From NCBI GenBank assembly GCA_002753135.1, contig PDZV01000007.1, positions 1 to 64,000 on the forward strand: DNA of 64,000 bases, written 5' to 3'. Below, piece after piece: positions 26,845 to 47,890 of this stretch (positions within the stretch are counted from its first letter, which is position 1; each line of letters begins with the position of its first letter). Below the pieces are notes generated by a model, which made no database searches, had not been told where the DNA came from, and saw only the letters and a program-made list of their open reading frames with translations. The stretch comes from Magnetococcales bacterium WMHbinv6. Its GTDB lineage: Bacteria > Pseudomonadota > Magnetococcia > Magnetococcales > Magnetaquicoccaceae. Position numbers and translations under genes: made by a program.

Positions 26845-26871
26845 AAAAAAACCCTCTCCCGAAGGAGAGGG
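26845..26871 (-). terminator. rho-independent terminator of the giant repeat gene
   Basis: Read on the minus strand, CCCTCTCC pairs with GGAGAGGG (26864-26871 with 26852-26859) around a TTCG tetraloop, followed immediately by seven T residues (26845-26851). The UUCG loop gives an exceptionally stable hairpin. It separates the 19-kb gene from the TPR-glycosyltransferase gene that starts 48 nt further on. Confidence 0.93.
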
Positions 26872-26891
26872 AATGATAGCAACCCTCCTGT

Positions 26892-26922
26892 TACCGGCTC
26901 TCTCGTCACGAGAGAGCCGGTA
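26892..26922. other. 14-bp perfect palindromic hairpin upstream of the terminator
   Basis: TACCGGCTCTCTCG (26892-26905) and CGAGAGAGCCGGTA (26909-26922) form a perfect stem with a 3-nt centre, lying between the stop codon of the giant gene and its terminator. It could protect the 3' end of the 19-kb mRNA from exonucleases or bind a protein. Confidence 0.6.
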
Positions 26923-26930
26923 AAGAGTCA

Positions 26931-29900
26931 CTAGCTGGTCCACAACACCAAGTCAAGCGGTGTACTCGGAGCAGTCGAGTGCAGGTTGGTAATCTGCGTG
27001 GTGGTGATACCAGCCGCCGTCCACGCCGCCTTGGAGGCGAAAGCACCGGCTTGAATCGAATCCATCACACCCAACTGCGTCGCGGTCAGCGCCGCAATCT
27101 GGGTCTTGGTCATTGCCGCCACATCGGTGTATTCCAAACCACCAATCTGCGTGGTGGTCAGCGCCACCACCGAGGTCTTGGTCAAAGCACGAATCTGATC
27201 GGTCGAAAGACCCGTGATCTGACTGGTGGTCAAACCACCCAACTGCGTGGTGGTCAAAGCGGCCACCTGGGTCGTGGTCAAACCGTCCAACTGGCTATCT
27301 TCCAAATTGGCCAGCTGCAGCGAGGTCAAGCCGCCAAACTGCGTACTCTTCAAGGCCGCTACCTGCGTGGAGGTTATGCCATCCAACTGGGTATTGGCCA
27401 AGCTCGCCAACTGTACTGAAGTCAAGCCAGCAAACGGCGTGACGGCAATTGCTGCCAAAGCAACGGAACTCAAACCATCCAACTGGGTATTGGCCAACCC
27501 CTTCCATTGTGCCGAAGTCAGGCCCGACAACTGCGTATCAGCAAAACCGGACAACAGGGTCGAAGTCATACCATCCAACTGCGTACCGACAAAGGCCGCA
27601 AACTGCGTCGAACTCAGCCCATCGAACTGGGTATCAGCCCAGGTACTCAACTGAGCAGAGGTCAAACCTTTCAATTGGATCGTCGAGAAGCTGCTGATCT
27701 GCGACGATGACAAACCATCCAACTGGGTTGCGACCAGCGACTTCAATTGTACCGAAGTCAAACCATTCAACGGACCATCCACCCAACTGCTGATGGTTGT
27801 CGAGCTCAAACCATCCAACTGGGTTGCGGCCAAGGTGCGCAACATGGCCGAAGTCATGCTGGCCAATTGTGTCACCGCCAAACCACTCAACTGGCCAGAA
27901 GTCAGGCCATTCATCTGAGTCTCATTCAGCTCCGACAGCTGGCTTGAATAGAGACCATTCATCTGGGTATCTGCCAGGCTGGCCAACTGCAGGGAGGTCA
28001 AACCATCCAGCTGGGTATTGGTCAAATTGCTTACAGAGGTCGACAACAGACCATTCAATTGCGCCACCGTCAGTGCCTTCAACTGCAGACTGGCCAAACC
28101 ATCCAACTGCGTATCGGCGATGGAAGCCATTTGTGTACTCGTCAAACCAGCCAACTGCGTGACGGCCAAGGTCACCAACATCAACGAAGACAAACCGTCC
28201 AGTTGCGTGCTGGCCAAATCAGCCATCTGACCCGAAGTCAAACCATTCAACTGGGTAGCCACCAGGCTGCCCAACACCAGCGAGGTCATGCCATCCAACT
28301 GGGTATTGGCCAACGAAGCCAACTGAACGGAGGTTAAACCTGTCATCTGCGTATCCACCAACGCAGCCAGTTGATCATCCACCAGGCCATTCAACTGTGC
28401 CGCCGTCAGCCCCTTCAACTGCAAGGAGGTCAAGGCATTCAGCTGGGTATCGGCCAAGCCGCTCAATTGATCGGAGGTCAAGCCAAGCAGCTGCGCTGTC
28501 TCCAATCCGGCCAACTGCGCTGAAACCAGACCATCCAACTGCGTACCCGCCAAGGAGGCCAGCCGTGTGGAGAGCAAGCCATCCAGCTGGGTATCCGCCA
28601 GGGCAGTCAACTGCAACGAGGTCAGACCATTCAACTGCGTCGCTGCCAGGGAGGCCAGGGAGGCAGAGGCCAAACCATCCAACTGGGTATTCGCCAAAGC
28701 AGCCAATTGGGCCGAGGCAAGGCCATTCAGCTGGGCAACCGACATGGCGGCCAACTGCAGCGAAGTCAGACCATCCAACTGCGTATTGACAAGGGTGGCA
28801 AGCAGTGCCGAGGTCAAACCAGCCAACTGGCTGTTGGCCAAGCCGGTCAACTGCAGTGAACGCAGGCCATCCAATTGGGTACCCACCAACGAAGCCAATT
28901 GAACCGATCTCAGGCTATCCAGTTGGGTATCCGCCAACAGATTCAGACGGTCTGAGGTCAGGCCATCCAACTGGGTACCCGACAGACCTGTCAACAACGT
29001 CGAGGTCAAGCCATTCAGTTGCGTGTCTGCCAGGGTCGTCAGTTTCAGCGAGGTCAGTCCACGCAACTGGGTACCGACCAGAGAGGCCAGTTGAGCCGAG
29101 GTCATGCCATCCAACTGCGTACCAATCAACGAAGCCAACTGCGTCGAGGTCAGACCATTGAGCTGGCTGTCCGCCAAACCACCCAATTGAACAGAACGCA
29201 AACCATGCAACTGACTGGTGCTTCTGGAACTCAACTGGACACTGGACAGACCGTCCAATTGTGTGTCTGCCAAGGCCGTCAACTGCGTCGAGGTAAGAGC
29301 AGCCAGCTGCGTTGCTGCCAGACCAGCCAACAGCGCCGAAGTCAAACCATTCAACTGGGAATCGGCCAAAGATGCCAATTGTGCCGAAGTCAGGCCATCC
29401 AACTGCGTATTGGCCAAACCGCTGAGACTGAGCGACTGCAAGCCGTTCCACTGTGTCGCTGCCAATCCCTTCAGCTGCAGAGAAGTCAGGCCATTCAACT
29501 GCGAATCTGCCAGCGCGTATAGCGAAGCGGAGGCCAAACCATTCAACTGGCCTTCACTCAGAGCCGCCGCCTGCGTGCTGGACAAACCATTCAGTTGGGT
29601 ATCAGCCAGGGAGGCCAACTGAGCAGAGGTCAAAGCAGCCAATTGGGTAACCACCAAAGCGGACAACTGCGCCGACAAAAGACCATTCAACTGGCTATCG
29701 GCCAGACCGCTCAACTGTGCCGACTTCAAGCCATCCAACTGGCTATCCGCCAACGCCGCCAGCTGAGCGCTTCTGACGCCGTTCAACAGCGCATTCGACA
29801 TACCGGTCAATTGTGCCGAGGTCAGACCGTTCAACTGGGTATCGGCCAAGGAGGAGAGTGCCGCCGTGGCGAGACCCGCCAACTGTGTTGCCACCAAAGA

Positions 29901-32900
29901 GGCCAGGTTCGTTGAGGTCAGACCGTTCAACTGGGTATCGGCCAGCCCACTCAACTGGCTGGAGGTCAACCCATCCCACTGCGTTGCAGCCAACGCATTC
30001 ACCTGGGTCGAAGCCAAACCATCCAACTGTGTCCCTACCAGAGAGGTCAGTTGCACCGACGTCAAACCGTTCAACTGGCTATCCGCCAGGCTGGTCAACA
30101 ACCCGGAGGTCAGCCCATTCAACTGTACCACCGACAGGCCAGCCAACTGGGCAGAAGAGAGACCATCCAACTGGCTGTTCGCCAAGCTGGCCAAATGACC
30201 ACTCCGCAAGCCGTCCAGCTGCGTGTCCGCCAGGCCAGTCAACGTCATGGAATAGAGACCATTCAACTGCGTGTCCGCCAACGAAGCCAGATGCAGCGAC
30301 GTCAAACCGTTCAGTTGCGTATCCGCCAAAGCACTCAGCTGCGTCGAAAGCGTACCGTTGAGCTGGGTAACCGCCAGGCTGGCCAATTGAGCGGAGGTAA
30401 AGCCGTTCAACTGGGTATCGGCCAAGGTACTCAACTGGGTCGATTTCAAGCTGTTCAAGTGCGCGTTGGACAAGGCAGCAAAGGTCACCGACGACAGCAC
30501 ATCCAACGAAGTACTGGCCAAGGTGCCCAACCATGTCGTGGCCAGACCGTTGAGCTGGGTTCCTGCCAACGCCAGGTATTGGCTCTGACTCAAACCGGCA
30601 GCCTGGGTGTTTTTCAGGATGGCCAACTGGGTTGAAGTCAGACCATTCAACTGGGTATCGGCAAGATCAGTCAACTGCGTCGAAGTCAAGCCAGCCAATT
30701 GTACCGTCGTCAACAAGCCAAGGGCTGTAGAGGTCAGGCCATCAAACTGGGTGTTGGCCATGGACGCCAATTGGGTCGAGGCCATACCAGCCAATTGCGT
30801 GGCAGCCAAACCGGCCAACTGCGTCGACTGCAAACCATTCAACTGGGTGGCAGCCAAACCGGCCAACTGCGATGAACTCAGACCATTGAGCTGGGTATCG
30901 GCCAGGGATGCCAGGCCGGTGCTGCTCAAACCATTCAGCAGTGTACCGTTCATGGCATTCAGCTGAGCCGAACTCAAACCGTTCAACTGGGTATCCGCCA
31001 GCGCCGACAACAGACTGCTGGTCAAACCGGCCACCTGTGTTACCACCAGACCATTCAACTGGGCGGAACTCAATCCATTCAACTGCGTATCCGCCAGCCC
31101 CTTCAACTGCGAGGAGAGCAGACCGTCCAACTGGGTATCTGCCAAACCGGTCAGGCTCGAGGAGGCCAAACCATCCAACTGCGAACCGAGCAGAGACTTC
31201 AGCTGCAAAGAGGTCAAACCGTCAAGCTGGCTATCCGCCAGGCCCTTCAGAGCCAAAGAGGCCAAACCGGACAACTGGGTTGTTGCCAGCCCACCCAATT
31301 GAACCGAGGTCAAACCATTCAACTGCGTATTCGCCAAAGCCAGCAGTTGACCCGTTGCCAGCCCATTCAACTGCGTGTTTGCCAGGGCTTGCAGCGACGC
31401 CGCCGCCAAACCATCCAACTGCGTATTGCCCAGAACTCTCAACTGTGTTGAAGACAATCCATCCAGTTGGCTATCCGCCAAAGCAGCCAACTGACCCGAT
31501 GTCAGACCAGACAGTTGTGTGCCTGCCAGAGTCGTCAACTGAACCGAAGTCAAGCCGTCCAACTGCGTATCTGCCACACCGGCCAACTGGGCTGAGCTTA
31601 AGCCATTCAAGGCCGCTGAGGTCAGACTGGCCAATCCCAAATTGGACAATCCATTCAACTGGGTAGCCGCCAAGCTGCCCAACGCTGCCGAGCCCAATCC
31701 TGCCAACTGGGTATCCGCCAAACCGGTAATCGCCGAGGAACTCAGCCCATTCAACTGCGTACCCGCCAGAGTCGACAGTTGGCTGGAGGTCAAACCGTCC
31801 AACTGGCTGTCAGCCAGTGCCGTCAGTTGTGCCGAAGTCAAGCTGTTAAGCTGGCTGCCCGCAAGCGTACCCAACTGAACCGAACTCAAGCCATTCAGCT
31901 GCACATTGGTCAGGTTGTACAGTTGAGTAGAAGTAAGGCCGTTCAACTGCGTACCGGCCAAATTCAGAACATTGACCGAGGTCAAACCACCCAGTTGCGT
32001 CGCCACCAATGAGGCCAGCTGTACCGAAGTCAAACCATTCAACTGGCTGTCCGCCAAAGCCGCCAGCGTTGCCGAAGTCAGAGAATGGATCTGCCCAGTA
32101 GCCAAACCAGACAATTGCGTGGAGAGCAGGCCGTTCCACTGCGTATTGGCCAGACCAGCCATTTGGGCCGAAGTCAAACCATCCAACTGCGTATCGGCCA
32201 ACGAACCCAACGAGACAGAGGTCAGACCATCCAACTGGGTTCCAACCAGGCCCTTCAACTGAACCGAACTCAAACCATTCAATTGCGTATCGACCAAGCC
32301 CTTCAGCGCCGTTGAGGACAACCCCTTCAACTGAACCGTTGTCATGCCAGTCAATTGCGTTGAACTCAAGCCATTCAATTGCGTATCCGCCACCCCCGCC
32401 AACTGCGCCGAACTCAACCCATCCATTTGGGTATCCACCAAACCGCTCAGTTGCGATGAAAGCAGGCCGTTCAATTGCGTGTCAGCCAACGACAGCAACT
32501 GGGCTGAAGTCAAACCATCCAACTGGCTATCAGCCAAAGCAGTCAGGTTGCCACTGGACAGGCCATTCAGTTGTACAACGGTCAATCCCTTCAAGTGCAC
32601 GGAACTCAGGCCGTTCATCTGCGTATCTGCCAACCCACTCAACTGGCTGGAAAGCAGAGCGGACAATTGCGTTGCCGCCAAACCGGCCAATTGGACCGAG
32701 AGCAAACCATTCAGCTGTGTATCCGCCAAAGAGGCCAAGCGGGCAGAACTCAATCCGTTCAATTGGGTATCGGCCAACGCGCTCAAGCGACCCGAAAGCA
32801 AGCCATCCAACTGGGTATTCACCAGCTTACCCAACATTGTCGACGAGAGTCCGTCCAACTGCGAATCAGCCATCGCTTTCAACTGCAGAGAAGCCAGACC

Positions 32901-35900
32901 CGCAATTTGCGCAGCAACCAAATTACCCAATTGCAACGAACCCAGCCCATTCAACTGGGTATCGGCCAGCGAAGAGAGATGCGCCGAGGTCAAACCGGTC
33001 AACTGGCTATCGGCCAACGCGGCCAACTGCGACGACAACATGCCGTTCAACTGGGTGTTGGCCAACGATTTCAATTGCGCCGACAGCAAGCCGTTGAGCT
33101 GGGTGTCCGCCAAACTCGTGAGACGCAACGACAGCAAACCGTTCAGCTGCGTGGTTTTCAACGCGGCCACTTGAGACGAACCCAAACCATCCAACTGACT
33201 ATCGGCCAAACCACTCAACAGTGCGGAGTGCAAACCGGCCAGCTGGCTGTCAGCCAGAGCATTCAACTGCAGCGAATACAAGCCGTTCAACTGCGTATCG
33301 GCCAGCGTTGCCAAATTCGCTGAGGTCAAACCGTTCAACTGCGTGTCCGCCAGGCTGCTCAATACAGCTGCTTGCAAGCCATTCAACTGCGTTGCCACCA
33401 ACGATGCCAGTTGCGTTGAAGTGAATGTATCCAACTGCGTATCGACCAATCCAGCCAGTCGACTGGAGAGCAAGCCATTCAATTGCACAACCGTCAGGCT
33501 GGCAAGCGCTGCAGACTGCAAGCCATTCAGCTGCGTGTCAGCCAATGTTGCCAAAACGGCCGAGCCCAAACCTACCAACTGCGTACCGGCCAAACCACTG
33601 ATCTGGTCCGAACCCAATTGATTCAATTGGGTACCTGCCAAGGTCGCCAACTGACCAGAAGTCAGGCCGTTCAACTGCGTATCCGCCAAGGCGGAGAGCT
33701 GCACCGAGGTCAGACCATTCAGTTGCGTGCCTGCCAACCCAGTCAATTGCAGCGACTTCAGGCCATCCAGCTGCGTATCAGCCAAAGAGGTCAGTTGGGT
33801 GGAGGTGAACCCGTTCATCTGAGTGTCGGCCAAAGCAGACAGGCGGGTGGCTGAGAATTTGTCCAACACCGCAGTACTCAACGAAGCCAACTTCACCGAA
33901 GTCAAACCACCCCACTGCGTGTCAGCCAGCCCGCTCATCTGGTCCACACTCAATCCAGACAGCTGCGTGCCAACCAAACCGCTCAATTGCGCCGAGGTCA
34001 AACCATCCAACTGACTGTCAGCCAACGAGGCCAACATGCCCGAAGTGAAGCCGCGCAACTGTACTGTACTCAAACTGGCCAGCATGACAGAGGTCAAACC
34101 ATCCAACTGGGTATCCACCACAGTCTGCAACTGATCTGATGTCAAACCAGCCAATTGGCTATTGGCCAACGCACCTACCTGGCTCGCTTGCAGGCCGTTC
34201 AGTTGCACCGAAGTCAACGAACGCAGTTGCAGCGAACTCATCCCATCCAGTTGGCTGTCTGCCAATCCAGCGAGCGATCCGGAAGCCAAACCATCCAATT
34301 GAGCAAGGGAGAGCTTGGACAGTTGTACCGAACTTAAGCCATCCAACTGGGTATCAGCCAAACCAGAGAGGCGTGCGGAGAGCAAACCAGCAATCTGGGT
34401 ATCCGCCAAGCCGGTCAAGTGGCCGGCGGTAAGCCCATTCAACTGGGTATCGGCCAAACTCATGATCTGCTGTGAGGTGATACCGTTCAATTGGCTGTCA
34501 GCCAACGAGGCCAGTTGCACGGAGGTCGATCCATTCAACTGCACCACCGTCAGGTTCTGCAGTTGAGCAGAGCTTAAACCATTCAACTGCGTGTCAACCA
34601 AACCGGCCAAACGTACAGAACTCAGACCACCCAGCTGCGCAACCGTCAAACCAGTCAGTTGCGATGCAGACAATCCGTTCAGCTGCGTATCGGCTAACGC
34701 CGCCAACTGCCCGGAGGCCAAACCATCCAACTGCGTGTCAGCCAGAGCAGACAACTGACCAGACAGCAGACCATTCAACTGCGTATTGACCAGAGAGGTC
34801 AACTGTACCGAACGCAAGCCATTGAGCTGCGTATCGGCCAAGGCGGTCAACACACTGGAAGTCATTCCATCCAACTGGCTGTTCGCCAAACCTTGCAGTT
34901 GTGCATCAGTCAAGCCGTCCAGCTGGGTATCGGCCATACTGTTCATTTGCGCCGAGGTCAAACCATTCAACTGCGTGTCGGCCAAGCTACCCAGGGCAAC
35001 GGAATACAAACCATTCAACTGTGTGGCTGCCAACGAACGCAAACCTTCGGTCGACAGCCCGTTGAACTGCGTGGACGCAAAGGCCGACAATTGGCTCGAC
35101 TTGAGACCATTAAGCTGCACAGAGCCAAGTCCCGCCAACAATGTCGAGGTCAAACCATCCAGCTGGCTGTCCGCCAAAGCAGTCAACTGTGTGGAGGTCA
35201 AACCATCCATCTGCGTATCGGACAGAGCAGCCAATTGCGATGAACCCAGCCCGTTCAACTGGCTGTCCTTGAGAACCTGCACCTGCGCAGACTGCAAGCC
35301 ATTCAATTGGGTATCGGCCAAATTGGTCAGTTGCACCGAGGTAAAACCGGCCAACTGGACAGTCGACAAACTCTTCAGTTGTGTCGAGGTCAGACCATTG
35401 AGCTGGCTATCAGCCAAGGCCTGCAACTTCGCCGACGACAAGCCAGCCAACTGAGTCGCGGCCAAACCACTCAATTGACCCGAAAGCAGACCATCCAACT
35501 GCGTGTCGGCAAAAGTGGCCAGCACGCCACTGCTCAAACCATTCAGTTGCGTGTCAGCCAAGGCCTGCAAACGCAATGAGGTCAAACCATCCAGCTGTGT
35601 ACCACTCAAACCGGCTAACGAAAGACTGCTCAAGCCATCCAACTGCGAATCCGCCAGACCCAACAAGCGCACCGAGGTCAGCCCGTTGAGCTGCGTATTG
35701 GCCATCGCGGTCAGCAAGAGCGACGTCAAGCCATTCAACTGGCTATCCGCCAGCGACAGCAGTTGCGCGGAGGTCAACCCCTTCATCTGCGTAGCCGCCA
35801 AGCCCGCCAGTTGACCTGAAAGCAGGCCATCCAATTGCGTGTTGACCACATCGCTCAACTGGCCAGAAGTCAAACCATTCAACTGGCTATCCGCCAACGC

Positions 35901-38900
35901 TTGCAGACGCAACGAATAGACACCACTCAATTGCGTTGAGAGCAGACCCGCCAACTGTGCTGAAGTCAAACCATCCAACTGGCTGTCCGCCAAACCAGCA
36001 AGCCGAGCAGAAGAGAGGCCATACAGCTGGCCGGTCGACAACGAACCCAAGCCAACGGAGGTCAGACCGTTCAACTGGCTGTCCGCCAAAGAGGCCAGCT
36101 GAATTGAGCTGAAACCATCCAGTTGGGTCTCTGCCAGACTGCTCAGTCCAGCCGTTGACAAACCATTCAACTGCGTATTGGCCAACCCCTTCCATTGCGA
36201 GGAACTCAGTCCATCCAACTGCGTATCCGCCAATGCACTCAGCTGCAGCGAGGTAAGCCCTGCCAACTGGGAATCTTTCAAGGCGGTCCAACCCGTCGAG
36301 GTCAAACCATTCAGCTGGGTATCCGCCAACGCACTCAATTGCAGCGAGGTCAGGCCAAGCAGCTGGGTATCAGCAAGCCCGCTCAATCTGGCCGAGACCA
36401 TGCCATCCAACTGCGTATTGAGCAGAGCCCGCAATTGATCAGAAGAGATACCGTTGAGCTGGGTATCCGCCAATCCCTGCAACTGCCCGGAGGCCAAACC
36501 ATGCAACTGTACTGAGGTCAGGTTCGTCAACTGCAGTGACGCCAAACCATCCAATTGGGTATCTGCAAAACCGGTCAACTGGGCAGATGACAACCCATCC
36601 AACTGGCTGTTGGCCAAGCCGGTCAGTTGTACCGATGTCAAACCATTCAACTGGCTATCAGCCAGGGCCGCCAATTGGCCATAGCTCAAACCATTGAGTT
36701 GCGTATCGGCAAGTCCCATCAAACGTGCCGAGGCCAAACCGTTCAACTGGCTGTTGGACAAACTCGTCAAATGGCTGGAGGTGAGCCCATTCAACTGTGT
36801 ATCGGCCAAGCCTGTCAATTGAGTGGAGAGCAGCCCATTCAGCTGTGCCGTACTCAACTGCGACAACGAGGCCGATTGCAAACCATTCAACTGCGAATCT
36901 GCCAAGGTCACCAGCTGCACAGAACTCAAGCCCGCCAACTGCGAGTCGGCAAAGGCCATCAAAGCCGCCGAGGTCAGACCATCCAACTGTGTCGAAACCA
37001 GACCGGTCAAGCGCACGGAGGTCAAGCCATCCAACTGGCTGTCAGCCAAACCGGCCAACTGCGTCGAAGTCAGACCATCCAACTGCGTTACCGCCAAAGC
37101 GGCCAACTGCAGCGAACCCAGACCATTCAACTGCGTATTGGCCAGACTGCTCAACACCACGGAAGTCAAACTGCGCAACTGCGTGTTGGCCAAATTGCTC
37201 AAGGCACCCGATGTCAGACCGTTCAACTGTACCGAGGTCAGTTGGCCCAACTGCGTCGAAAGCAGGGCATCCAGCTGGGTATCCGCCAAGCCAGCCAGCT
37301 GCGTTGAAGTCAGGCCTGCCAATTGGGTCGCCGCCAAACCGCGCAATTGGCCGGTTGTCAAACCATCCAACTGTGAATCGGCCAAAGCGGCCAACTGTCC
37401 TGACAACAAACCATTGAACTGCGAATCAGCCAACTGCCCAAGGCGAACCGAGGTCAAGCCGTTGAGTTGTGTGTCGGCAAGCGTCGCCAGTTGCAGCGAA
37501 CCCAATCCCGTCAACTGGGTCGCAGCCAATGCCGTCAAATGTCCCGAGGTCAAACCATTCAACTGCGTCGCGACCAGGGCATCCAACTGGACAGAACTCA
37601 AGCCGTTCAACTGCGAATCAGCGAGAGCAGTCAGCAGGGAGGAACTCAAACCATCCAATTGCGTATCTGCAAACGCACTCAACATAGCCGAGGTAAGCGC
37701 ATCCAACTGGCTGTCGGCCAGAGTGGTCAGCTGTCCTGAGGTCAAACCGTTGAGCTGCGTATCAGCAAAATTAGCCAAGCGGGTTGAGTACAAACCATTC
37801 AGTTGCGTGGCCGCCAAGGTGGCCAAACCTACCGATTGCAGGCCATCCAACTGCGTATCCGTCAATGCCTGCAGCTGTCCCGATTGCAACCCATTCAACT
37901 GGGTTCCAGACAGCCCACTCAATTGCGACGAGCCCAAACCGTTCAATTGGGTGTCTGCCAAAGCAGCCAATGAAGCAGAGGTCAAACCATTCAACTGCGT
38001 GTCAACCAAGCCGGCCAAACTCGTGCTGCGCAAGCCGTTCAATTGCGTGTCACTCAACCCGGCAAGCTGCGTCGAGGTCAAACCATCCAACTGTGTTTCC
38101 GCCAAGGCCGTCAACGACAACGACAACAGACCATTCAACTGCGTACCTGCCAAACCTTCAACCTGTGACGAACCCAAACCATTCAGCTGACTATCGGCAA
38201 GCGCCGTCAGGTGGGTTGAGGTCAGGCCGTTCAACTGCGTGTTGGCCAGCGCAGACAAGGCCAGCGAATAGAGACCATTCAGCTGGCTGTCCGCCAGGCC
38301 GGCCAAGTGCGTTGAATGCAAACCATCCAACTGGCTGTCCGCCAAGCCGATCAGACGCGACGACAACAGACCATCCAACTGGGTGCCAGCCAAAACCCGC
38401 AACTGGCTGGAGGTCAAACCATCCAACTGACTGTCCGCCAAGGCACTCAGTTGTACCGAGGTCAAACCATCCAACTGACTGTTGACCAAGGCCTGCAACT
38501 GCATCGAAGCCAGACCGTCCAGTTGCGTATCAACCAATCCGGTCAATTGCACGGAACGCAAACCATCCAACTGCGTATCGGCCAACGCCGTCAACTGCAA
38601 CGAACGCAAACCATCCAGCTGGCTGTCGGCAAGATTTTGCAACTGGCTCGAACGCAAAGCATCCAGTTGGGAATCTGCCAGTGCAAGCAGCTGCATCGAC
38701 AGCAAACCATTCAACTGCGTATTGACCAGAGCATTCAACTGCATCGAGCGCAAGCCGTTCAACTGGGTATCGGCGAGTGCTTGCAGCTGCAACGACTGCA
38801 GGCTATCCAACTGAGAGTCTGCCAAGGATTGCAAATCGGTCGCAGCAAGACCATCCAACTGCGTATCGACCAACCCTTTCAGCTGCATGCTCAACAGACC

Positions 38901-41900
38901 ATCCAACTGGGTATCGGCCAAACTTGCCAGCAGCACTGAAGAGAGTCCATCCAACTGGCTATCCGCCAATCCCCTCAATTGCAAGGAGGTCAGGCCATCC
39001 AGCTGCGTATCGGCCAGGCTGGTCAGTTGCTGTGACATGACACCGTTCAGTTGCGTATCGGCCAGGCTGTTCAACGACAACGAGCCCAAACCATTCAACT
39101 GAGAGTCGGCCAAAGCGTTCAACTGCAACGAAGTCACACCGTTGAGTTGTGTATCCACCAACGCCAGCAACTGCATGCTGCGCAGACCATCCAACTGGGT
39201 ATCGTCAAACCCCTTCAAGCGCGAAGAGAGCAGACCATCCAGCTGGGTATCCGCCAGACCTTTCAGCTGCAGCGACAAGAAACCATCCAGTTGCGTATCA
39301 GACAACCCGGCCAACTGCGCCGAGGTCAAACCATTCAACTGCGTCTCTGCCAATTCGGAAAGTTGCAGACTGGTCAGACCGTTCAACTGCGTATCCGCCA
39401 GAGAGGCCAAGGCCAGGGAGGTCAAGCCATTCAACTGCGAATTTTCCAGGGCCACTAACCGCGAAGAAAGCAGTCCGTTCAATTGCGTATCGACCAGCCC
39501 ACTCAGGTGAACGGAGGTCAATCCATCCAGCTGTGAGTCATCCATGGCCTGCAACTGCGACGCCTGTAAACCATCAAACTGCGTGCCCGCCAAGGCGGTC
39601 AGCTGCACGTCCAGCAAACCATCCAACTGGCTGTCCGCCAACGTACTGAACGCAACGGAGGTCAGGCCATTGAGCTGCGTGTTTGCCAACTCGGTCAACT
39701 GCGTCGAGAGCAGACCATTCAACTGTGAGTCTGCCAAGGCAAACAGCTGCATCGACAAAAGACCATTCATCTGGACGACCGACAACTCCGCCACATGGGC
39801 AGAACGCAATCCGTCCAGCTGCGAGTCGGCCAGGTTTTTCAACTGAATGGAGGTCATGCCATCCAACTGCGTATCCGCCAAAGCTGTCAATTGCAGTGAA
39901 CGCAAGCCATCCAATTGCGTACCGGCAAGCGTGCTGAGCTGATCAGAAAGCAGACCATCCAGTTGTGTATCCGCCAAAGCTGTCAATTGCAGCGAACGCA
40001 AACCATTCAACTGTGTTCCAGCCAAACCGGCCAATTGCGTGGCAGACAAACCATCCAATTGGGAATCAGCCAAATTGGTCAGCGCCACGGAAGAGAGACC
40101 GTCCAACTGCGTATCTGCCAGCCCTGTCAACTGCAGCGAACGCAAACCATCCAACTGCGTCATCGCCAGTGTACTCAGACGTGACGCCAACAGACCATCG
40201 AGTTGCGTGTCCGCCAACGCCGTCAATTGCAGCGAACCCATGCCATCCAACTGCGTCCCTGCCAGACTGCTTAACACATCGGAGGTCAAACCATTCAACT
40301 GCGAATCCGCCAAGGCCGTCAACTGCAGCGAGGTCAAGCCATTCAACTGTGACCCGGCAAGGGCAGTGAGCTGCGTTGAGGTCAAGCCATCCAACTGGCT
40401 GTCCGCCAAATTTTTCAGCTGGGTCGTTGCCATGCCGTCCAACTGTGAATCGGCCATCAACTTCAACGCCAAGGAACTCAAACCATCCAATTGCGTATTA
40501 GCCAACGACTGCAGCTGTACTGAACCCAAACCAAACAGCTGCGTGTCAGCCAAGGCCTGCAGTTGCAAAGATTGCAATCCATCCAGCTGCGTACCGACAA
40601 GAGCTGCGATTTGTGCTGAAAGTACGCCATTCAATTGTGAATCAGCCAAGCCCGACAACTGGATTGAAGTCAAACCGTTCAACTGCGTATCCGCCAAACC
40701 TCGCAGTTGCAGGGAGAGCAAACCATCCAGTTGGGTACCCGCCAACGTCTTCAACAACGCGGACGTCACACCATTCAGTTGTGTATCTGCCAGCGCTTTC
40801 AGTTGCAGCGAGACCATACCATCGAGTTGGGTCCCTGCCACACCCGACAATTGGCTGGCGCTCAGACCATCCAACTGCGAATCGGCCAGGGCCGTCAACT
40901 GGTTCGAGACCAAACCGTTCAACTGCGTCGCCACCAGCCCATTCAACTGCAGCGAAACCAAACCATTCAACTGGGTATCGGCCAGTCCACTCAACAGCGT
41001 CGAGGTTAAACCATCCAACTGCGTATCCGCCAATTGGGTGATACTGCCAGAGAGGAGGCCATTCAACTGCGTGCCAGACAAAGAAGCCAACTGGGTTGAA
41101 CTCACTCCATTCAATTGGCTGTCGGCCAGCGCCGTCAAGCTCAATGAATACAGGCCATTCAACTGCGTCCCAGCCAGTCCGGCCAGTTGTGCGGAAGACA
41201 AACCATTCAACTGACTGTCAGCCAAGCTCTCCAATTGAACCGACAACAAAGCATCCAACTGGCTATCCGCCAAAGCGGCCAAGCTGCCTGAACCCAAACC
41301 ATTCAGTTGGGTATCCACCAACCCTTTGATTTGCGTAGAGACCAAACCATTCAGTTGGGTATCGGCAAGATTGGTTAAGTTCACTGAACTCAGGCCATCC
41401 AGCTGCGTGCCGGTCAAGCTCGTCAACGGAACAGAGGTCAAACCATCCAGCTGTGAGTCGGCCAGAGCCATCAATTGGGTAGAGGTCAAACCATTGAGCT
41501 GGGTATTGGCCAACCCGGTCAGCTGCAAATAACGCAAACCGTTCAACTGCGTATCGGCCAGGTTCAACAACTGACCGGAAGTCAGTCCGTTCAGTTGCGT
41601 ATCCGCAAGACCGGTCAGATTGACTGAAGTCAAATTATCCAGCTGGGTATTGGCCAAAGAGGCCATCTGTGCAGAGGTCAAACCATCGAGCTGGCTATCG
41701 GCCAAGGCGCTCAACTGCATCGACGACAGACCATTGAGCTGGGTTGCGGCCAACGAAGCCAGCAGTGTGGCACCCAAACCATTCAACTGGGTGTCCGCCA
41801 AAGCAGTCAGCGAATCCGACAACAGACCATTCAACTGGGTATCCGCCATGGCACCCAGCTGGCTGCTGATCAGGCCATTCAATTGGGTATCCGCCAACGT

Positions 41901-43064
41901 TTTCAACGCCAGCGAGGTCAAACCATTGAGCTGTGTATCAGCCAATGCGGACAACTGCAGACTGTACACACCATTCAACTGCGTCGTCGCCAGCGCACTC
42001 AACTGTGCGGAGGTCAAACCGTTCAACTGGCTATCTGCCAAGGCGGACAATTGAGCGGCTGCAAGGCCGTTCAACTGCGTATCGGCCAAATTGCTCAGAT
42101 TGGTATTCGTCAAGCTGTCCAACTGCGAATCGGCCAATGCCGTCAACTGAACACTGGTTAAACCATCGAGCTGCGTATCAGCCAAAGCAGTCAATTGCAC
42201 AGAAGACAACCCATTCAGCTGAACAATCGACAAACTTGCCAACTGCCCCGATGTCAGACCATTGAGTTGCGAATCCGCCAAGGCAGCCAATTGTACCGAG
42301 GTCAAACCACTCAACTGCGATCCTGCCAGCCCGGTCAATTGAGCCGAACGCAAGCCATCCAGTTGGCTGTCTGCCAAAGCAGCCAATTGCGCCGAGGCCA
42401 GGCCATTCAGCTGCGTATCCGCAAACCCCCGCAGACTTAAGCTGGCCAAACCATTCAATTGTGTATCGGACAGCGTTACCAATCGATGTGAAAGCAGACC
42501 ATCCAATTGAGAATCTGCCAAGGCTGCCAAGTGGGACGACAACATGCCGTCCAATTGCGTACCAGCCAAAGAGGCCAATTGCACCGAAGTCAGACCATTC
42601 AACTGCGAATCGGCCAAATTCTGCAACTGCAACGACCTCAAACCATTCAACTGTGTGGCAACCAGAATCACCAGTTGACTGTCATCCAAACCATCCAGCT
42701 GCGAATCCGCCAATGAACTCAGCTGTACAGACGACATCCCCTGCAATTGGGTATCAGCAAGATTGGTCAACGCAATCGAAGTCAATGCATCCCATTGCGT
42801 TGTTGCCAAACCACCGACCGGGGTTGTCTGCAGACCATTCAACTGGGTATCCGCCAACGATGCCAACCGGGACGATGCCAAACCATCCAACTGGGTATTG
42901 GCCAAAGAAGCCAATTGCACCGATGTCAAACCATCCAGTTGCGAATCTGCCAAGGCCTGCAGCTGCAATGACGTCAAGCCGTCGAGCTGGCTATCCTCCA
43001 AACTGCCCAGTTGGATGCTGCTCAAACCATTCAGCTGGGTATCGGCCAACCCTTTCAAACCAAT
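26931..43064 (-). CDS. giant octad-repeat protein, main part after the in-frame stop
   Basis: This frame is open for 5,377 codons and is in the same frame as the segment 43065-46172, separated from it only by a TAG. It consists of 16-residue repeats with consensus A-D/N-T/S-Q-L-N/D-G-L-x-S-x-Q-L-x-x-L, each made of two 8-residue halves (xxxQLxxL). There are no cysteines in the parts I checked, few charges except the Asp at positions 2 and 6, and many Ser/Thr. The last about 115 residues are simpler octads (LTTTQIxx) ending in STPLDLVLWTS. No ribosome site precedes the first usable start (TTG 43058), so independent translation is doubtful. Synonymous codons vary between repeats while residues are kept, which argues for selection on the protein. 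Function unknown; a long solenoid fibre is my inference. Confidence 0.8.
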   Translation of the reverse strand: MGLKGLADTQLNGLSSIQLGSLEDSQLDGLTSLQLQALADSQLDGLTSVQLASLANTQLDGLASSRLASLADTQLNGLQTTPVGGLATTQWDALTSIALTNLADTQLQGMSSVQLSSLADSQLDGLDDSQLVILVATQLNGLRSLQLQNLADSQLNGLTSVQLASLAGTQLDGMLSSHLAALADSQLDGLLSHRLVTLSDTQLNGLASLSLRGFADTQLNGLASAQLAALADSQLDGLRSAQLTGLAGSQLSGLTSVQLAALADSQLNGLTSGQLASLSIVQLNGLSSVQLTALADTQLDGLTSVQLTALADSQLDSLTNTNLSNLADTQLNGLAAAQLSALADSQLNGLTSAQLSALATTQLNGVYSLQLSALADTQLNGLTSLALKTLADTQLNGLISSQLGAMADTQLNGLLSDSLTALADTQLNGLGATLLASLAATQLNGLSSMQLSALADSQLDGLTSAQMASLANTQLDNLTSVNLTGLADTQLNGLTSGQLLNLADTQLNGLRYLQLTGLANTQLNGLTSTQLMALADSQLDGLTSVPLTSLTGTQLDGLSSVNLTNLADTQLNGLVSTQIKGLVDTQLNGLGSGSLAALADSQLDALLSVQLESLADSQLNGLSSAQLAGLAGTQLNGLYSLSLTALADSQLNGVSSTQLASLSGTQLNGLLSGSITQLADTQLDGLTSTLLSGLADTQLNGLVSLQLNGLVATQLNGLVSNQLTALADSQLDGLSASQLSGVAGTQLDGMVSLQLKALADTQLNGVTSALLKTLAGTQLDGLLSLQLRGLADTQLNGLTSIQLSGLADSQLNGVLSAQIAALVGTQLDGLQSLQLQALADTQLFGLGSVQLQSLANTQLDGLSSLALKLMADSQLDGMATTQLKNLADSQLDGLTSTQLTALAGSQLNGLTSLQLTALADSQLNGLTSDVLSSLAGTQLDGMGSLQLTALADTQLDGLLASRLSTLAMTQLDGLRSLQLTGLADTQLDGLSSVALTNLADSQLDGLSATQLAGLAGTQLNGLRSLQLTALADTQLDGLLSDQLSTLAGTQLDGLRSLQLTALADTQLDGMTSIQLKNLADSQLDGLRSAHVAELSVVQMNGLLSMQLFALADSQLNGLLSTQLTELANTQLNGLTSVAFSTLADSQLDGLLDVQLTALAGTQFDGLQASQLQAMDDSQLDGLTSVHLSGLVDTQLNGLLSSRLVALENSQLNGLTSLALASLADTQLNGLTSLQLSELAETQLNGLTSAQLAGLSDTQLDGFLSLQLKGLADTQLDGLLSSRLKGFDDTQLDGLRSMQLLALVDTQLNGVTSLQLNALADSQLNGLGSLSLNSLADTQLNGVMSQQLTSLADTQLDGLTSLQLRGLADSQLDGLSSVLLASLADTQLDGLLSMQLKGLVDTQLDGLAATDLQSLADSQLDSLQSLQLQALADTQLNGLRSMQLNALVNTQLNGLLSMQLLALADSQLDALRSSQLQNLADSQLDGLRSLQLTALADTQLDGLRSVQLTGLVDTQLDGLASMQLQALVNSQLDGLTSVQLSALADSQLDGLTSSQLRVLAGTQLDGLLSSRLIGLADSQLDGLHSTHLAGLADSQLNGLYSLALSALANTQLNGLTSTHLTALADSQLNGLGSSQVEGLAGTQLNGLLSLSLTALAETQLDGLTSTQLAGLSDTQLNGLRSTSLAGLVDTQLNGLTSASLAALADTQLNGLGSSQLSGLSGTQLNGLQSGQLQALTDTQLDGLQSVGLATLAATQLNGLYSTRLANFADTQLNGLTSGQLTTLADSQLDALTSAMLSAFADTQLDGLSSSLLTALADSQLNGLSSVQLDALVATQLNGLTSGHLTALAATQLTGLGSLQLATLADTQLNGLTSVRLGQLADSQFNGLLSGQLAALADSQLDGLTTGQLRGLAATQLAGLTSTQLAGLADTQLDALLSTQLGQLTSVQLNGLTSGALSNLANTQLRSLTSVVLSSLANTQLNGLGSLQLAALAVTQLDGLTSTQLAGLADSQLDGLTSVRLTGLVSTQLDGLTSAALMAFADSQLAGLSSVQLVTLADSQLNGLQSASLSQLSTAQLNGLLSTQLTGLADTQLNGLTSSHLTSLSNSQLNGLASARLMGLADTQLNGLSYGQLAALADSQLNGLTSVQLTGLANSQLDGLSSAQLTGFADTQLDGLASLQLTNLTSVQLHGLASGQLQGLADTQLNGISSDQLRALLNTQLDGMVSARLSGLADTQLLGLTSLQLSALADTQLNGLTSTGWTALKDSQLAGLTSLQLSALADTQLDGLSSSQWKGLANTQLNGLSTAGLSSLAETQLDGFSSIQLASLADSQLNGLTSVGLGSLSTGQLYGLSSARLAGLADSQLDGLTSAQLAGLLSTQLSGVYSLRLQALADSQLNGLTSGQLSDVVNTQLDGLLSGQLAGLAATQMKGLTSAQLLSLADSQLNGLTSLLLTAMANTQLNGLTSVRLLGLADSQLDGLSSLSLAGLSGTQLDGLTSLRLQALADTQLNGLSSGVLATFADTQLDGLLSGQLSGLAATQLAGLSSAKLQALADSQLNGLTSTQLKSLSTVQLAGFTSVQLTNLADTQLNGLQSAQVQVLKDSQLNGLGSSQLAALSDTQMDGLTSTQLTALADSQLDGLTSTLLAGLGSVQLNGLKSSQLSAFASTQFNGLSTEGLRSLAATQLNGLYSVALGSLADTQLNGLTSAQMNSMADTQLDGLTDAQLQGLANSQLDGMTSSVLTALADTQLNGLRSVQLTSLVNTQLNGLLSGQLSALADTQLDGLASGQLAALADTQLNGLSASQLTGLTVAQLGGLSSVRLAGLVDTQLNGLSSAQLQNLTVVQLNGSTSVQLASLADSQLNGITSQQIMSLADTQLNGLTAGHLTGLADTQIAGLLSARLSGLADTQLDGLSSVQLSKLSLAQLDGLASGSLAGLADSQLDGMSSLQLRSLTSVQLNGLQASQVGALANSQLAGLTSDQLQTVVDTQLDGLTSVMLASLSTVQLRGFTSGMLASLADSQLDGLTSAQLSGLVGTQLSGLSVDQMSGLADTQWGGLTSVKLASLSTAVLDKFSATRLSALADTQMNGFTSTQLTSLADTQLDGLKSLQLTGLAGTQLNGLTSVQLSALADTQLNGLTSGQLATLAGTQLNQLGSDQISGLAGTQLVGLGSAVLATLADTQLNGLQSAALASLTVVQLNGLLSSRLAGLVDTQLDTFTSTQLASLVATQLNGLQAAVLSSLADTQLNGLTSANLATLADTQLNGLYSLQLNALADSQLAGLHSALLSGLADSQLDGLGSSQVAALKTTQLNGLLSLRLTSLADTQLNGLLSAQLKSLANTQLNGMLSSQLAALADSQLTGLTSAHLSSLADTQLNGLGSLQLGNLVAAQIAGLASLQLKAMADSQLDGLSSTMLGKLVNTQLDGLLSGRLSALADTQLNGLSSARLASLADTQLNGLLSVQLAGLAATQLSALLSSQLSGLADTQMNGLSSVHLKGLTVVQLNGLSSGNLTALADSQLDGLTSAQLLSLADTQLNGLLSSQLSGLVDTQMDGLSSAQLAGVADTQLNGLSSTQLTGMTTVQLKGLSSTALKGLVDTQLNGLSSVQLKGLVGTQLDGLTSVSLGSLADTQLDGLTSAQMAGLANTQWNGLLSTQLSGLATGQIHSLTSATLAALADSQLNGLTSVQLASLVATQLGGLTSVNVLNLAGTQLNGLTSTQLYNLTNVQLNGLSSVQLGTLAGSQLNSLTSAQLTALADSQLDGLTSSQLSTLAGTQLNGLSSSAITGLADTQLAGLGSAALGSLAATQLNGLSNLGLASLTSAALNGLSSAQLAGVADTQLDGLTSVQLTTLAGTQLSGLTSGQLAALADSQLDGLSSTQLRVLGNTQLDGLAAASLQALANTQLNGLATGQLLALANTQLNGLTSVQLGGLATTQLSGLASLALKGLADSQLDGLTSLQLKSLLGSQLDGLASSSLTGLADTQLDGLLSSQLKGLADTQLNGLSSAQLNGLVVTQVAGLTSSLLSALADTQLNGLSSAQLNAMNGTLLNGLSSTGLASLADTQLNGLSSSQLAGLAATQLNGLQSTQLAGLAATQLAGMASTQLASMANTQFDGLTSTALGLLTTVQLAGLTSTQLTDLADTQLNGLTSTQLAILKNTQAAGLSQSQYLALAGTQLNGLATTWLGTLASTSLDVLSSVTFAALSNAHLNSLKSTQLSTLADTQLNGFTSAQLASLAVTQLNGTLSTQLSALADTQLNGLTSLHLASLADTQLNGLYSMTLTGLADTQLDGLRSGHLASLANSQLDGLSSAQLAGLSVVQLNGLTSGLLTSLADSQLNGLTSVQLTSLVGTQLDGLASTQVNALAATQWDGLTSSQLSGLADTQLNGLTSTNLASLVATQLAGLATAALSSLADTQLNGLTSAQLTGMSNALLNGVRSAQLAALADSQLDGLKSAQLSGLADSQLNGLLSAQLSALVVTQLAALTSAQLASLADTQLNGLSSTQAAALSEGQLNGLASASLYALADSQLNGLTSLQLKGLAATQWNGLQSLSLSGLANTQLDGLTSAQLASLADSQLNGLTSALLAGLAATQLAALTSTQLTALADTQLDGLSSVQLSSRSTSQLHGLRSVQLGGLADSQLNGLTSTQLASLIGTQLDGMTSAQLASLVGTQLRGLTSLKLTTLADTQLNGLTSTLLTGLSGTQLDGLTSDRLNLLADTQLDSLRSVQLASLVGTQLDGLRSLQLTGLANSQLAGLTSALLATLVNTQLDGLTSLQLAAMSVAQLNGLASAQLAALANTQLDGLASASLASLAATQLNGLTSLQLTALADTQLDGLLSTRLASLAGTQLDGLVSAQLAGLETAQLLGLTSDQLSGLADTQLNALTSLQLKGLTAAQLNGLVDDQLAALVDTQMTGLTSVQLASLANTQLDGMTSLVLGSLVATQLNGLTSGQMADLASTQLDGLSSLMLVTLAVTQLAGLTSTQMASIADTQLDGLASLQLKALTVAQLNGLLSTSVSNLTNTQLDGLTSLQLASLADTQMNGLYSSQLSELNETQMNGLTSGQLSGLAVTQLASMTSAMLRTLAATQLDGLSSTTISSWVDGPLNGLTSVQLKSLVATQLDGLSSSQISSFSTIQLKGLTSAQLSTWADTQFDGLSSTQFAAFVGTQLDGMTSTLLSGFADTQLSGLTSAQWKGLANTQLDGLSSVALAAIAVTPFAGLTSVQLASLANTQLDGITSTQVAALKSTQFGGLTSLQLANLEDSQLDGLTTTQVAALTTTQLGGLTTSQITGLSTDQIRALTKTSVVALTTTQIGGLEYTDVAAMTKTQIAALTATQLGVMDSIQAGAFASKAAWTAAGITTTQITNLHSTAPSTPLDLVLWTS
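26985..27281 (-). repeat. C-terminal simple octad region of the giant protein
   Basis: Here the 16-residue alternation dissolves into consecutive 8-residue units of the form L-T-T-T-Q-I/L-x-x (for example LTTTQVAA, LTTTQLGG, LSTDQIRA, MTKTQIAA). About ten such octads are followed by a degenerate unit and a non-repetitive tail. It may be a capping or export region. Confidence 0.7.
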
Positions 43065-43067
43065 CTA
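43065..43067 (-). other. in-frame amber codon inside the giant repeat gene
   Basis: The codon after DTQLDGLT, which is Ser in nearly every other unit, is TAG; the same frame resumes at once with IGLKGLADTQLNGL. A single C-to-A change from TCG would explain it. It could be a sequencing error, a recent nonsense mutation, or a site of readthrough. Confidence 0.85.
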
Positions 43068-46000
43068 GGTCAACCCATCCAATTGGGTGTCAACCAACGC
43101 CGACAAGCGCGCTGACAACAAGCCATCCAACTGCGTGCCAGCCAAGCTGATGACCTGGTCGGAAGAGAGACCATTCAGTTGCGAGTCAGCCAAGGCAGTC
43201 AACTGCATGGACAACAGACCATTCAACTGCGTGGGCTGCATCTGTTGCAGGCCCAGCGAATGCAGACCATCGAGCTGACTGTCAGCCAAAGCGCTCAATT
43301 GACCAGAGGTCAGCCCCTCCACCTGCGCCGCGCTCAGACCCAGCAGTTGGGCAGCGAGCAGGCCATTCAATTGCGTGTTGGCCAGACCCTTCACCTGATC
43401 GGTTGACAAACCATCCAACTGGCTGTCGGCCAAGGCAGTCAACTGCAGCGAAAGCAAGCCGTTTAATTGGGTATTGATCAAAACGGAGATTTCCGTCGAA
43501 GTCAAACCATCCAGCTGTGAATCCGCCAGTGCGGTCAACTGCGTTGAGGTCAAACCAGCCAGCTGCGTATCATCCAGATTTTTCAACTGTATGGAACGCA
43601 AGCCATTCAGCTGGGCATCGTCCAGCCCCCGCAACTGCACGGAGGTCAAACCATCCAGCTGTGTATCTGCAAAGCCATTCAACTGCATACTCAACAGGCC
43701 ATCCAACTGCGTGTTGGCCATGTTCACCAACAGATCGGAACCCAGGCCGTCCAATTGCGAATCGGCCAAAGCGGTCAGTTGCACTGAACGCAGGGCATCC
43801 AACTGTGTACCGGCCAATTGCCCCAGATTGGTTGAGGTCAAACCATTCAGTTGCGAATCAGCCAAGGCCTTCAGTTGCAACGAGTACATGCCATCCAATT
43901 GGGTGGCAGCCAAGGCTTGCAACTGCAGCGAACGCAGACCATCATACTGCGTATTTTCCAGAGCGGTCACCTGGTCGGAAGAGAGCCCATCCAACTGGCT
44001 GTCTGCCAACGCCGCCAACTGCATCGAACCCAAACCATCCAACTGGGTGTTAACCAAACCGCTCAACTGATCGGAGAGCAGACCATCCAGCTGCGAATCA
44101 GCCAAGGCCCGCAACTGCATCGAACGCAAACCATCCAACTGGCTGTTGGCCAAACCGCTCAACTCTGCGGCACGCAAACCATCCAACTGGGAATCGGCGA
44201 ATGCGGTCAAATGTACCGAACTCAGACCATCCAACTGGGAATCAGCCAAACCATTCAATTGCATCGAGCGCAGGCCATCCAACTGGGTGTTGGCCAAAAC
44301 ACCGATCTGATCCGAGGTCAAACCATCCAATTGCGAGTCAGCCAACGCGCTCAGACGAGCTGAATAGAGTCCATCCAGCAGAGTGGAGGCCATCAGGCCA
44401 AGATTGACTGAGGTCAAACCATCCAACTGACTGTCCGCCAGGGCTTGCAAATGGCCAGAGGTCAAGCCGCTCAACTGTGTTGCAGCCAACGCGTTCAATT
44501 GCATGGAACGCAGTCCGTCAAACTGTGTGTTGGCCAGGAAGCTGAAATGATCCGCCGACAGACCATCCAACTGGCTGTCAGCCAAACCGGCGAGCTGCGC
44601 AGAGGTCAAACCGTTGAGTTGCGAATTGGCCAAAGTACCCAACTGCACCGAAGTCACACCGTTCAATTGCGTATCGGCCAAACCCTTCAATTGCAGTGAG
44701 GTCAGGCTATCCAGTTGGGTATCTTCCATGGAAGCCAAACCGGTCGACAACAAACCATCCAACTGCGAATCGGCCAGATTCAACAACTGCGAACCGGTCA
44801 ATCCATCAAGCTGGGTATCGGCCAAGGCACTCAGCTGCATCGAACGCAAGCCGTTGAATTGCGTGTTGGCAAAAGAAGCGAGCTGATCCGAGAGCAAACC
44901 ATCCAGTTGGCTGTCAGCCAAACCAGACAACTGCGTTGACAGCAGGCCATCCAACTGCGTGTTGGCCAGCAGGGAGAGATTTGTGGAGGTCAAACCATCC
45001 AGTTGCGAATCGGCAAGTGCCTTCAAGTGCAGCGAGGTCAGACCATCCAGTTGACTGTCAGCAAACACCTTCAATTGCGCAGCACGCAAACCATCCCACT
45101 GTGTGTTGGCCAGATAGGTGACTTGATCAGAGGTCAGACCATCCAGCTGCGAGTCCGCCAAAGCAGACAGTTGCGTTGAGGTCAAACCATCCAGCTGGGT
45201 TTTGGCCATCAACCCCAAAGAGACTGAGGTCAGGCCATTCAGCTGGCTGTCAGCCAGAGTTTTCAGCTGCACTGAGGTCAAGCCGGTCAACTGCGTGGCG
45301 TTGATGGCGGCCAAAAATGTTGAACTGAGTCCATCCAGCTGGGTACTGGCCAGCGCCTTGATCTGCAACGAAAGCAGACCAGCCAACTGTGAGTCGGCCA
45401 AGGCGGATAGCTGCAGGGAGCCCAGACCATCCAATTGGGTATTGGCCATATTGCCCAACTGCCCGGAGAGTACCCCGTTGAGTTGCGAATCGGCCAGGGC
45501 AGCCAATTGGCCGGAGGTCAAACCATCCAGCTGGGTATCGGCAAAAGCACTGAAAGAGAGAGAGCCCACCCCATCCAACTGGGTATTGGCCAGTGATTTT
45601 AATTGCAGGGAGGTCAGCCCGTCGAACTGGGTATCATCCAACTGCTTCAGCTGCAGTGAACGCATACCATCCAACTGGCTGTTGGCCAATGAAGTGAGCT
45701 GGTCAGAAGTGACACCGTCCAATTGGGTATCTGCCAACGCGGTCAACTGCATTGAGTAGAGACCGTTCAATTGGGTACCTACCAGAGAGCCCAGCTGATC
45801 GGAGAGCATACCATTCATTTGACTGTCGGCCAGGGCAGACAATCGGGCAGAGTACAGCCCATCCAATTGGGTGGTCGCCAGGGCCATCAACTGCAGCGAA
45901 CTCATGCCATCCAACTGCGTGTTGGCCAAACTGCTCACCTGCGTGGAGGTCAGACCATCCAGCTGGGTATCGGCCAGTGCGGTTATCTGCGACGATGAAA

Positions 46001-46172
46001 GATAATTCAGCTGGGTCGGCGTTGCTGTCGCCAGGGCGACTGCCTGCAACCCGTCTAGCACCGTATCCGCCAGAAGATAGAAAACATCTGTCTGGGTCGT
46101 AGAGGGAGAGTTGCTAGCCTGCAGGTCAGTTACGCTGGCGAGATCGCTGGATGCACCTGAATATTTTGCCAT
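43065..46172 (-). CDS. giant octad-repeat protein, N-terminal part up to the in-frame stop
   Basis: This 1,035-residue segment begins at ATG 46172 with a good ribosome site (AGAGGA, 8 nt spacing). The first about 32 residues (MAKYSGASSDLASVTDLQ, then a Ser/Thr-rich stretch) are not repetitive and do not look like a Sec signal peptide. From about residue 33 (LLADTVLDGLQAVAL) the 16-residue repeats run without break to the TAG at 43065-43067. Together with the downstream frame the gene would encode about 6,413 residues. In this part the residue at position 6 of the unit is mostly Asp (about three to one over Asn by eye), while Asn prevails later. No secretion gene lies nearby. If the stop is real, a 1,035-residue product with about 62 repeats would still be made. 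Confidence 0.85.
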   Translation of the reverse strand: MAKYSGASSDLASVTDLQASNSPSTTQTDVFYLLADTVLDGLQAVALATATPTQLNYLSSSQITALADTQLDGLTSTQVSSLANTQLDGMSSLQLMALATTQLDGLYSARLSALADSQMNGMLSDQLGSLVGTQLNGLYSMQLTALADTQLDGVTSDQLTSLANSQLDGMRSLQLKQLDDTQFDGLTSLQLKSLANTQLDGVGSLSFSAFADTQLDGLTSGQLAALADSQLNGVLSGQLGNMANTQLDGLGSLQLSALADSQLAGLLSLQIKALASTQLDGLSSTFLAAINATQLTGLTSVQLKTLADSQLNGLTSVSLGLMAKTQLDGLTSTQLSALADSQLDGLTSDQVTYLANTQWDGLRAAQLKVFADSQLDGLTSLHLKALADSQLDGLTSTNLSLLANTQLDGLLSTQLSGLADSQLDGLLSDQLASFANTQFNGLRSMQLSALADTQLDGLTGSQLLNLADSQLDGLLSTGLASMEDTQLDSLTSLQLKGLADTQLNGVTSVQLGTLANSQLNGLTSAQLAGLADSQLDGLSADHFSFLANTQFDGLRSMQLNALAATQLSGLTSGHLQALADSQLDGLTSVNLGLMASTLLDGLYSARLSALADSQLDGLTSDQIGVLANTQLDGLRSMQLNGLADSQLDGLSSVHLTAFADSQLDGLRAAELSGLANSQLDGLRSMQLRALADSQLDGLLSDQLSGLVNTQLDGLGSMQLAALADSQLDGLSSDQVTALENTQYDGLRSLQLQALAATQLDGMYSLQLKALADSQLNGLTSTNLGQLAGTQLDALRSVQLTALADSQLDGLGSDLLVNMANTQLDGLLSMQLNGFADTQLDGLTSVQLRGLDDAQLNGLRSIQLKNLDDTQLAGLTSTQLTALADSQLDGLTSTEISVLINTQLNGLLSLQLTALADSQLDGLSTDQVKGLANTQLNGLLAAQLLGLSAAQVEGLTSGQLSALADSQLDGLHSLGLQQMQPTQLNGLLSMQLTALADSQLNGLSSDQVISLAGTQLDGLLSARLSALVDTQLDGLT

Positions 46173-47882: not shown

Positions 47883-47890
47883 TCCTCGCC

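Follow-up and report, generated by a model that had tools for sequence, protein, structure and literature searches.

The giant gene in the window (the 64,000-nucleotide stretch of Magnetococcales bacterium WMHbinv6, an uncultured magnetotactic coccus, that we analyzed) encodes an array of ALTTAQ repeats whose composition varies along the gene with a period of 2.417 sixteen-residue units, which is not a whole number. This modulation is new and recurs in other families, and we read it as a screw with one acidic face. Below, we describe the array, the evidence for the screw, and the gene neighborhoods that bear on what the protein might do.

The repeat array and its ortholog in UR-1

Most of the giant gene is a contiguous series of 16-residue units. 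It is read on the minus strand, from 46172 to 26931, as a single frame of 6,414 codons (Table 1), and an AGAGG ribosome-binding-like site is immediately 5' of it. Residues 65-6320 are 391 back-to-back 16-residue units with zero insertions or deletions. The unit consensus is [AGS]-L-A-D-[TS]-Q-L-[DN]-G-L-T-S-x-Q-L-x, with an 8-residue half repeat inside, and conservation is 97% at Q6, 93% at G9, 91% at L7, 89% at S12, and 88% at L2, L10, and L15. There are no Cys and five Pro among the 6,256 residues of the array. A sequence-only reading of this DNA had described about 395 uninterrupted 16-residue repeats with an 8-residue half repeat. We confirmed the unit and its half repeat, with all 391 units in register and free of indels, but an in-frame TAG splits the frame. 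The spacer that leads from the giant gene to the terminator contains a second perfect inverted repeat (26891-26923; ACCGGCTCTCTCG...CGAGAGAGCCGGT).

Table 1. Features of the giant-gene locus, in window coordinates
Feature	Position	Strand	Basis or comment
TPR protein, 734 aa	24611..26815	-	syntenic in UR-1, 68% identity
Intrinsic terminator, CCCTCTCCTTCGGGAGAGGG then T run	26852..26871	-	strong; directly 3' of the giant gene
Giant ALTTAQ-repeat gene, one internal stop	26931..46172	-	ORF reading; PF20080 over cut-off
Tail: octad-type ALTTAQ units, then non-repeat C-terminus ending ...LDLVLWTS	26931..27212	-	
391 contiguous 16-residue units (782 octads) without indel	27213..45980	-	
In-frame TAG stop, codon 1036	43065..43067	-	conserved Ser position (UR-1: TCC, Ser)
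Head, 64 residues (MAKYSGASSDLAS...)	45981..46172	-	sequence; head shared with paralog on contig C71
dTDP-rhamnose-type genes: nucleotidyltransferase, 3,5-epimerase, RmlD, epimerase/dehydratase	46965..50377	+	rmlA 91% in UR-1
2,460-aa protein, three tandem TPR + GT41 (OGT-like) modules	50425..57807	+	syntenic in UR-1

The array is old and has not been homogenized. All 391 units are distinct, both in DNA and in protein, and the mean identity between units is ~54% (amino acids) or ~58% (nucleotides), whatever distance separates them. Because every unit is unique and identity is flat over distance, we conclude that there was neither a recent expansion nor a collapse of the assembly.

Judged from sequence comparison, the giant gene is under constraint (purifying selection) in its lineage. 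The best named match to the repeat (71%) was in Ca. Magnetaquicoccus inordinatus UR-1, from the same genus as the window organism (Ca. Magnetaquicoccaceae). The UR-1 ortholog is a single intact frame that is colinear with the window gene over 6,412 aligned residues (70% identity). No unit has been gained or lost between the two, and the gaps are one of three residues and one of a single residue, near the ends. The flanks are syntenic (rmlA, 91% identity; ligA, 79%; the TPR protein, 68%; a DegT-like protein, 54%), and dN was 0.23 and dS 1.49 (Nei-Gojobori). The conclusion that the gene is constrained is based on the colinear intact ortholog, a dN well below dS, and the syntenic flanks.

The TAG divides the giant frame into ORFs of 1,035 and 5,375 codons and, if real, the product would end short of its C-terminus. 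It is possible, though doubtful, that the gene is a fresh pseudogene in this strain with a product truncated to 1,035 residues, a reading that is compatible with the main model for the family. The stop does hit a conserved Ser codon. However, there was no further stop or frameshift in the remaining 5,377 codons, constraint was similar on its two sides (dN versus UR-1 of 0.20 before and 0.24 after the TAG), and a single-base assembly error is equally likely. The TAG is as likely to be a sequencing or assembly error as a fresh mutation, and we favor neither.

By profile match, the giant repeat is a member of a known Pfam family, PF20080 (ALTTAQ_rpt). Matches in three segments of the gene scored 45.7, 63.1, and 103.6 bits (curated cut-off of 26.4 bits), and the 8-residue spacing of PF20080 is maintained throughout the array. 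The sequence-only reading had taken the repeat to be unlike ice-nucleation, pentapeptide, RTX, and LRR repeats and had named a confident match to a known repeat family as evidence against itself; PF20080 is such a match. Like other members, the window array has the octad x-L-[TSA]-[TSPD]-x-Q-[LIV]-x, and the ~105-degree modulation described below was also found in the long members tested. It differs in alternating x-L-A-D-T-Q-L-[DN] and G-L-T-S-x-Q-L-x octads, which makes a strict 16-mer, and in extending over 782 octads versus the 38 positions of the Pfam model. We did not find the repeat motif in the open literature searched for ALTTAQ, HeliScrew, and related motifs.

The family is abundant in this genome and has a narrow distribution among its relatives. 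A PF20080 search of the whole genome gave matches on many contigs, with further ALTTAQ loci on C40, C28, C62, C42, C23, C76, C71, and C37; some are cut by contig ends and so are possibly fragments of one gene. In all, ~2% of the assembly encodes ALTTAQ proteins. Among 61 relatives, the carriers were solely the two genera of the window's family, and the repeat was not found in any other Magnetococcales family searched. In a phylum-wide draw, it was present in 27 of 399 genomes. A control genome, that of Caulobacter vibrioides, gave matches to both PF20080 and GT41. A short contig binned as Nitrospinota (JADGCD010000190.1) has ALTTAQ repeats 62% identical to those of the window; it is probably misbinned Magnetococcales.

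Periodic modulation and the fold of the repeat

The composition of the units varies with a period that is not a whole number of units. Unit autocorrelation was high at lags of 5, 7, 12, 17, 24, 29, 31, 36, etc., a pattern characteristic of a period that falls between whole numbers of units. The Asp residues at unit position 4 gave a spectral peak at 2.4171 units with a power of 69.4, compared to a maximum of 11.1 in 200 permutations. At this period, 95% of the units that lie on one face have Asp at position 4, compared to 5-15% of those on the opposite face. The local phase of Asp stayed within ~30 degrees for most of the array's length and departed from this once, near units 98-147. Lys or Arg at position 16 was enriched 133-137 degrees from the Asp face in the window gene and UR-1 alike.

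A test that used all residues gave signals that exceeded the permutation maxima at 0.2906-0.2949 cycles per octad, equivalent to 104.6-106.2 degrees per octad and 27.1-27.5 residues per turn. The loci above the maximum were the window gene, UR-1, two more from their genus (G001:C92 and G002), five from the sister genus, a Caulobacter sp. MAG, and genomes G350, G371, and G392; in the last two, the strongest line came from aliasing of the second or third harmonic. In several shorter or internally duplicated paralogs, the periodicity was below significance in this test. We interpret the 2.417-unit period as the twist of a screw that would turn ~105 degrees per octad, with ~27.3 residues per turn.

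We considered a single continuous alpha-helix, since a helix with 99.3 degrees per residue also arrives at 149 degrees after 16 residues, and in the 16-mer proteins 0.207 and 0.293 cycles per octad alias each other. This candidate was rejected. In proteins without 16-mer parity, the peaks were at ~0.291 cycles per octad or at harmonics of this value rather than in the 0.20-0.22 range, and in the four lineages without that parity the band of a single alpha-helix (0.20-0.215) was at background. The sequence-only reading had proposed a long solenoid-type fiber, which is still plausible, and had seen correctly that an ordinary continuous alpha-helix does not fit. Its estimate of 190 nm used a beta rise; the length would be ~0.2 micrometer if the screw rises 0.9-1.0 nm per 27.3-residue turn, as we assumed, and the two values are similar by coincidence.

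The giant array very probably folds as an alpha-screw of tiny helices, based on the model of a relative. A phmmer search of the PDB matched 9ZEM "HeliScrew4", an (LTPEQIAA)n chain (E 3e-5). It too is an octad protein and its name implies a helix screw, but it has only about 12 octads, and these carry Pro at position 4 and Thr or Ser at position 3. We modeled a 160-residue in-family relative that is 54% identical to HeliScrew4 with AlphaFold2, using 25 further rows mostly in the same octad register, and obtained a pLDDT of 93.4 and a pTM of 0.84. The model has one short alpha-helix per octad, with positions 4-8 helical in 85-100% of octads, a break at positions 2-3, which are almost helix-free, and no strand. 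The sequence-only reading had suggested modeling 10-20 consecutive units; for 18 units of the window array, supplied together with 19 in-register segments, the pLDDT was 43 and the model unusable, and the fold was therefore transferred from the confidently alpha-helical relative. Such relatives bear Pro/Thr caps that the window units mostly do not have; the window octads retain L2, Q6, and L7. The [DN]8-G1-L2 at the boundary between octad positions 8 and 1 would serve as an alpha-helix C-cap, which Gly followed by Leu fits. Foldseek with the model of the relative found no close solved fold, and 9ZEM was not among its matches, which were distant (mesothelin, TM 0.15-0.46, and phage proteins). 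Three proteins in genome G193 and its relatives, whose genomes are without GT41, have ~20 TPEQ-type octads inside a larger protein, ~50% identical to HeliScrew4.

Two other folds were weighed against the alpha-screw. The sequence-only reading had favored a two-sided beta-solenoid like that of ice-nucleation proteins, in which each unit makes a single coil of 16 residues. It drew on the 16-residue unit and 8-residue half repeat, a likeness that is real, and on an N-G or D-G once per unit, taken as a beta turn; in the octad, the [DN]-G falls where a helix C-cap would fit. Fold and coil length would differ between the two systems. If each 16-mer were one coil, neighboring units would face nearly alike and the modulation would be slow, in disagreement with the measured period of 2.417 units, which has no slow drift. 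Together with the match to PF20080 and the confident strand-free model of the relative, this makes the beta-solenoid highly improbable. A leucine-rich-repeat protein seems less credible still: phmmer did match LRR chains (best E 1.4e-6), but these alignments take no account of the unbroken 16-residue register and seem to reflect composition, Pfam LRR_EndoS was under its cut-off while PF20080 was above, and the window unit is 16 residues versus 20-30 for an LRR unit.

Neighboring genes with a possible role in glycosylation and secretion

Several ALTTAQ giants are near genes for GT41 (O-GlcNAc-transferase-like) enzymes. GT41 was found at the locus shared by the window and UR-1, at G001:C92, at sister-genus loci, ~140 bases downstream of the giant in the Caulobacter sp. 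MAG, ~85 bases downstream in G371, and within ~3 kb in G350. There was no GT41 in the stretches read around most other ALTTAQ loci and paralogs of the window genome, and it was not found in some ALTTAQ genomes (G193, G392). Genomes of the order commonly have GT41 whether or not they have ALTTAQ, so that co-occurrence in a genome is uninformative and adjacency alone counts. The neighborhood leads us to lean toward glycosylation of the giant protein by GT41. Tandem OGT-like giants similar to that in the window are present at G000:C17 (2,806 aa) and G001:C92 (3,781 aa). The C-terminal 300 residues of the TPR protein next to the giant gene had no Pfam match and show glycosyltransferase-like motifs by eye only.

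ALTTAQ giants adjoin type I secretion (T1SS) genes in two lineages, the sister genus and G371. In the sister genus, a gene for an HlyB-type ABC transporter is upstream of the giant on the same strand; such a gene adjoins the giants of G007-G010, and at one locus (L073) HlyD is between it and the giant. Near the G371 giant there are matches to PrtD (722 bits, cut-off 510), HlyD (372 bits, cut-off 209), and OEP/TolC. Typical T1SS cargo includes proteins with M10 peptidase and RTX domains; RTX repeats are common in T1SS substrates and not strictly required. A paralog (G000:C71, 1-3851) combines an ALTTAQ array with an M10 serralysin-type peptidase and RTX, and its head resembles that of the window gene. 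The window gene itself had no adjacent T1SS gene, the nearest listed ABC match on the contig being ~48 kb away; no hydrophobic signal peptide was visible in its 64-residue head, and there were no RTX repeats in the segments scanned. Overall, the neighborhoods and the paralog make export of the giant protein likely. A frame of 1,328 aa at G000:C46:177812-181687 has two tandem matches to T1SS-type ABC transporters, and similar frames of ~1,300-1,480 aa are found in many Magnetococcales genomes.

A model for the giant protein

Our best model, which we favor with some reserve, is that the giant protein is a T1SS-exported, glycosylated alpha-screw extracellular fiber with one acidic face; its function is inferred from the features above. 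Each octad would form one short alpha-helix, with the next helix turned ~105 degrees, and the chain would wind as a screw of ~27.3 residues per turn for some 229 turns. One face would be acidic along its full length (Asp at position 4), with Lys or Arg at position 16 roughly opposite. The chain would be made in the cytoplasm, glycosylated on Ser and Thr by the GT41 enzyme encoded nearby, and exported through a type I secretion system, folding outside into a long fiber that we consider fairly probably located at the cell surface. The striped face could then mediate lateral packing, cation binding, or attachment. A role as an adhesin, a coat, or a flagellar sheath is speculation.

The protein might instead stay inside the cell, where it could act as a ruler or scaffold for a structure such as the cell envelope or the magnetosomes. 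The window gene is without an adjacent T1SS gene and a signal peptide, its length is fixed across species over 391 units, and short ALTTAQ domains occur within other proteins in genomes without GT41, all consistent with such a role. However, the adjacency of T1SS genes in the sister genus and G371 and the paralog with RTX and an M10 metallopeptidase argue against it, and we regard an intracellular scaffold as unlikely.

Two known systems resemble the proposed fiber. Giant T1SS-exported repeat adhesins of the LapA/RTX type are very long, repetitive, and Cys-free, as is the window protein, whose relatives have ABC and HlyD neighbors. They are built of beta-sandwich domains, whereas the window array has predicted alpha-screw octads, no RTX in the segments scanned, and a putative GT41 partner. 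In the same order, MO-1 has a flagellar sheath glycoprotein of >350 kDa and bundle fibrils (PMC7175107). The window protein would likewise be a large glycosylated extracellular protein, a putative likeness of role only; none of the other Magnetococcales families searched had ALTTAQ.

The 391-unit array, colinear across species, offers a way to study what protects giant repeat genes from slippage. Sequence alone gives the proposed screw geometry of ALTTAQ proteins with a precision better than one degree, and a solved structure offers a check on it. The gene neighborhoods suggest a testable pathway from GT41 to T1SS to fiber. We raise, as a bolder proposal that is probably wrong as a whole, that ALTTAQ giants with GT41 and T1SS make up a class of glycosylated extracellular alpha-screw fibers that has not been described before, in which the acidic stripe drives assembly of a sheath or coat. 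A constant twist would allow evolution to paint one straight acidic stripe over some 230 turns and, if the proposal is true, side-by-side assembly driven by that stripe would give freshwater magnetotactic cocci a sheath or coat.
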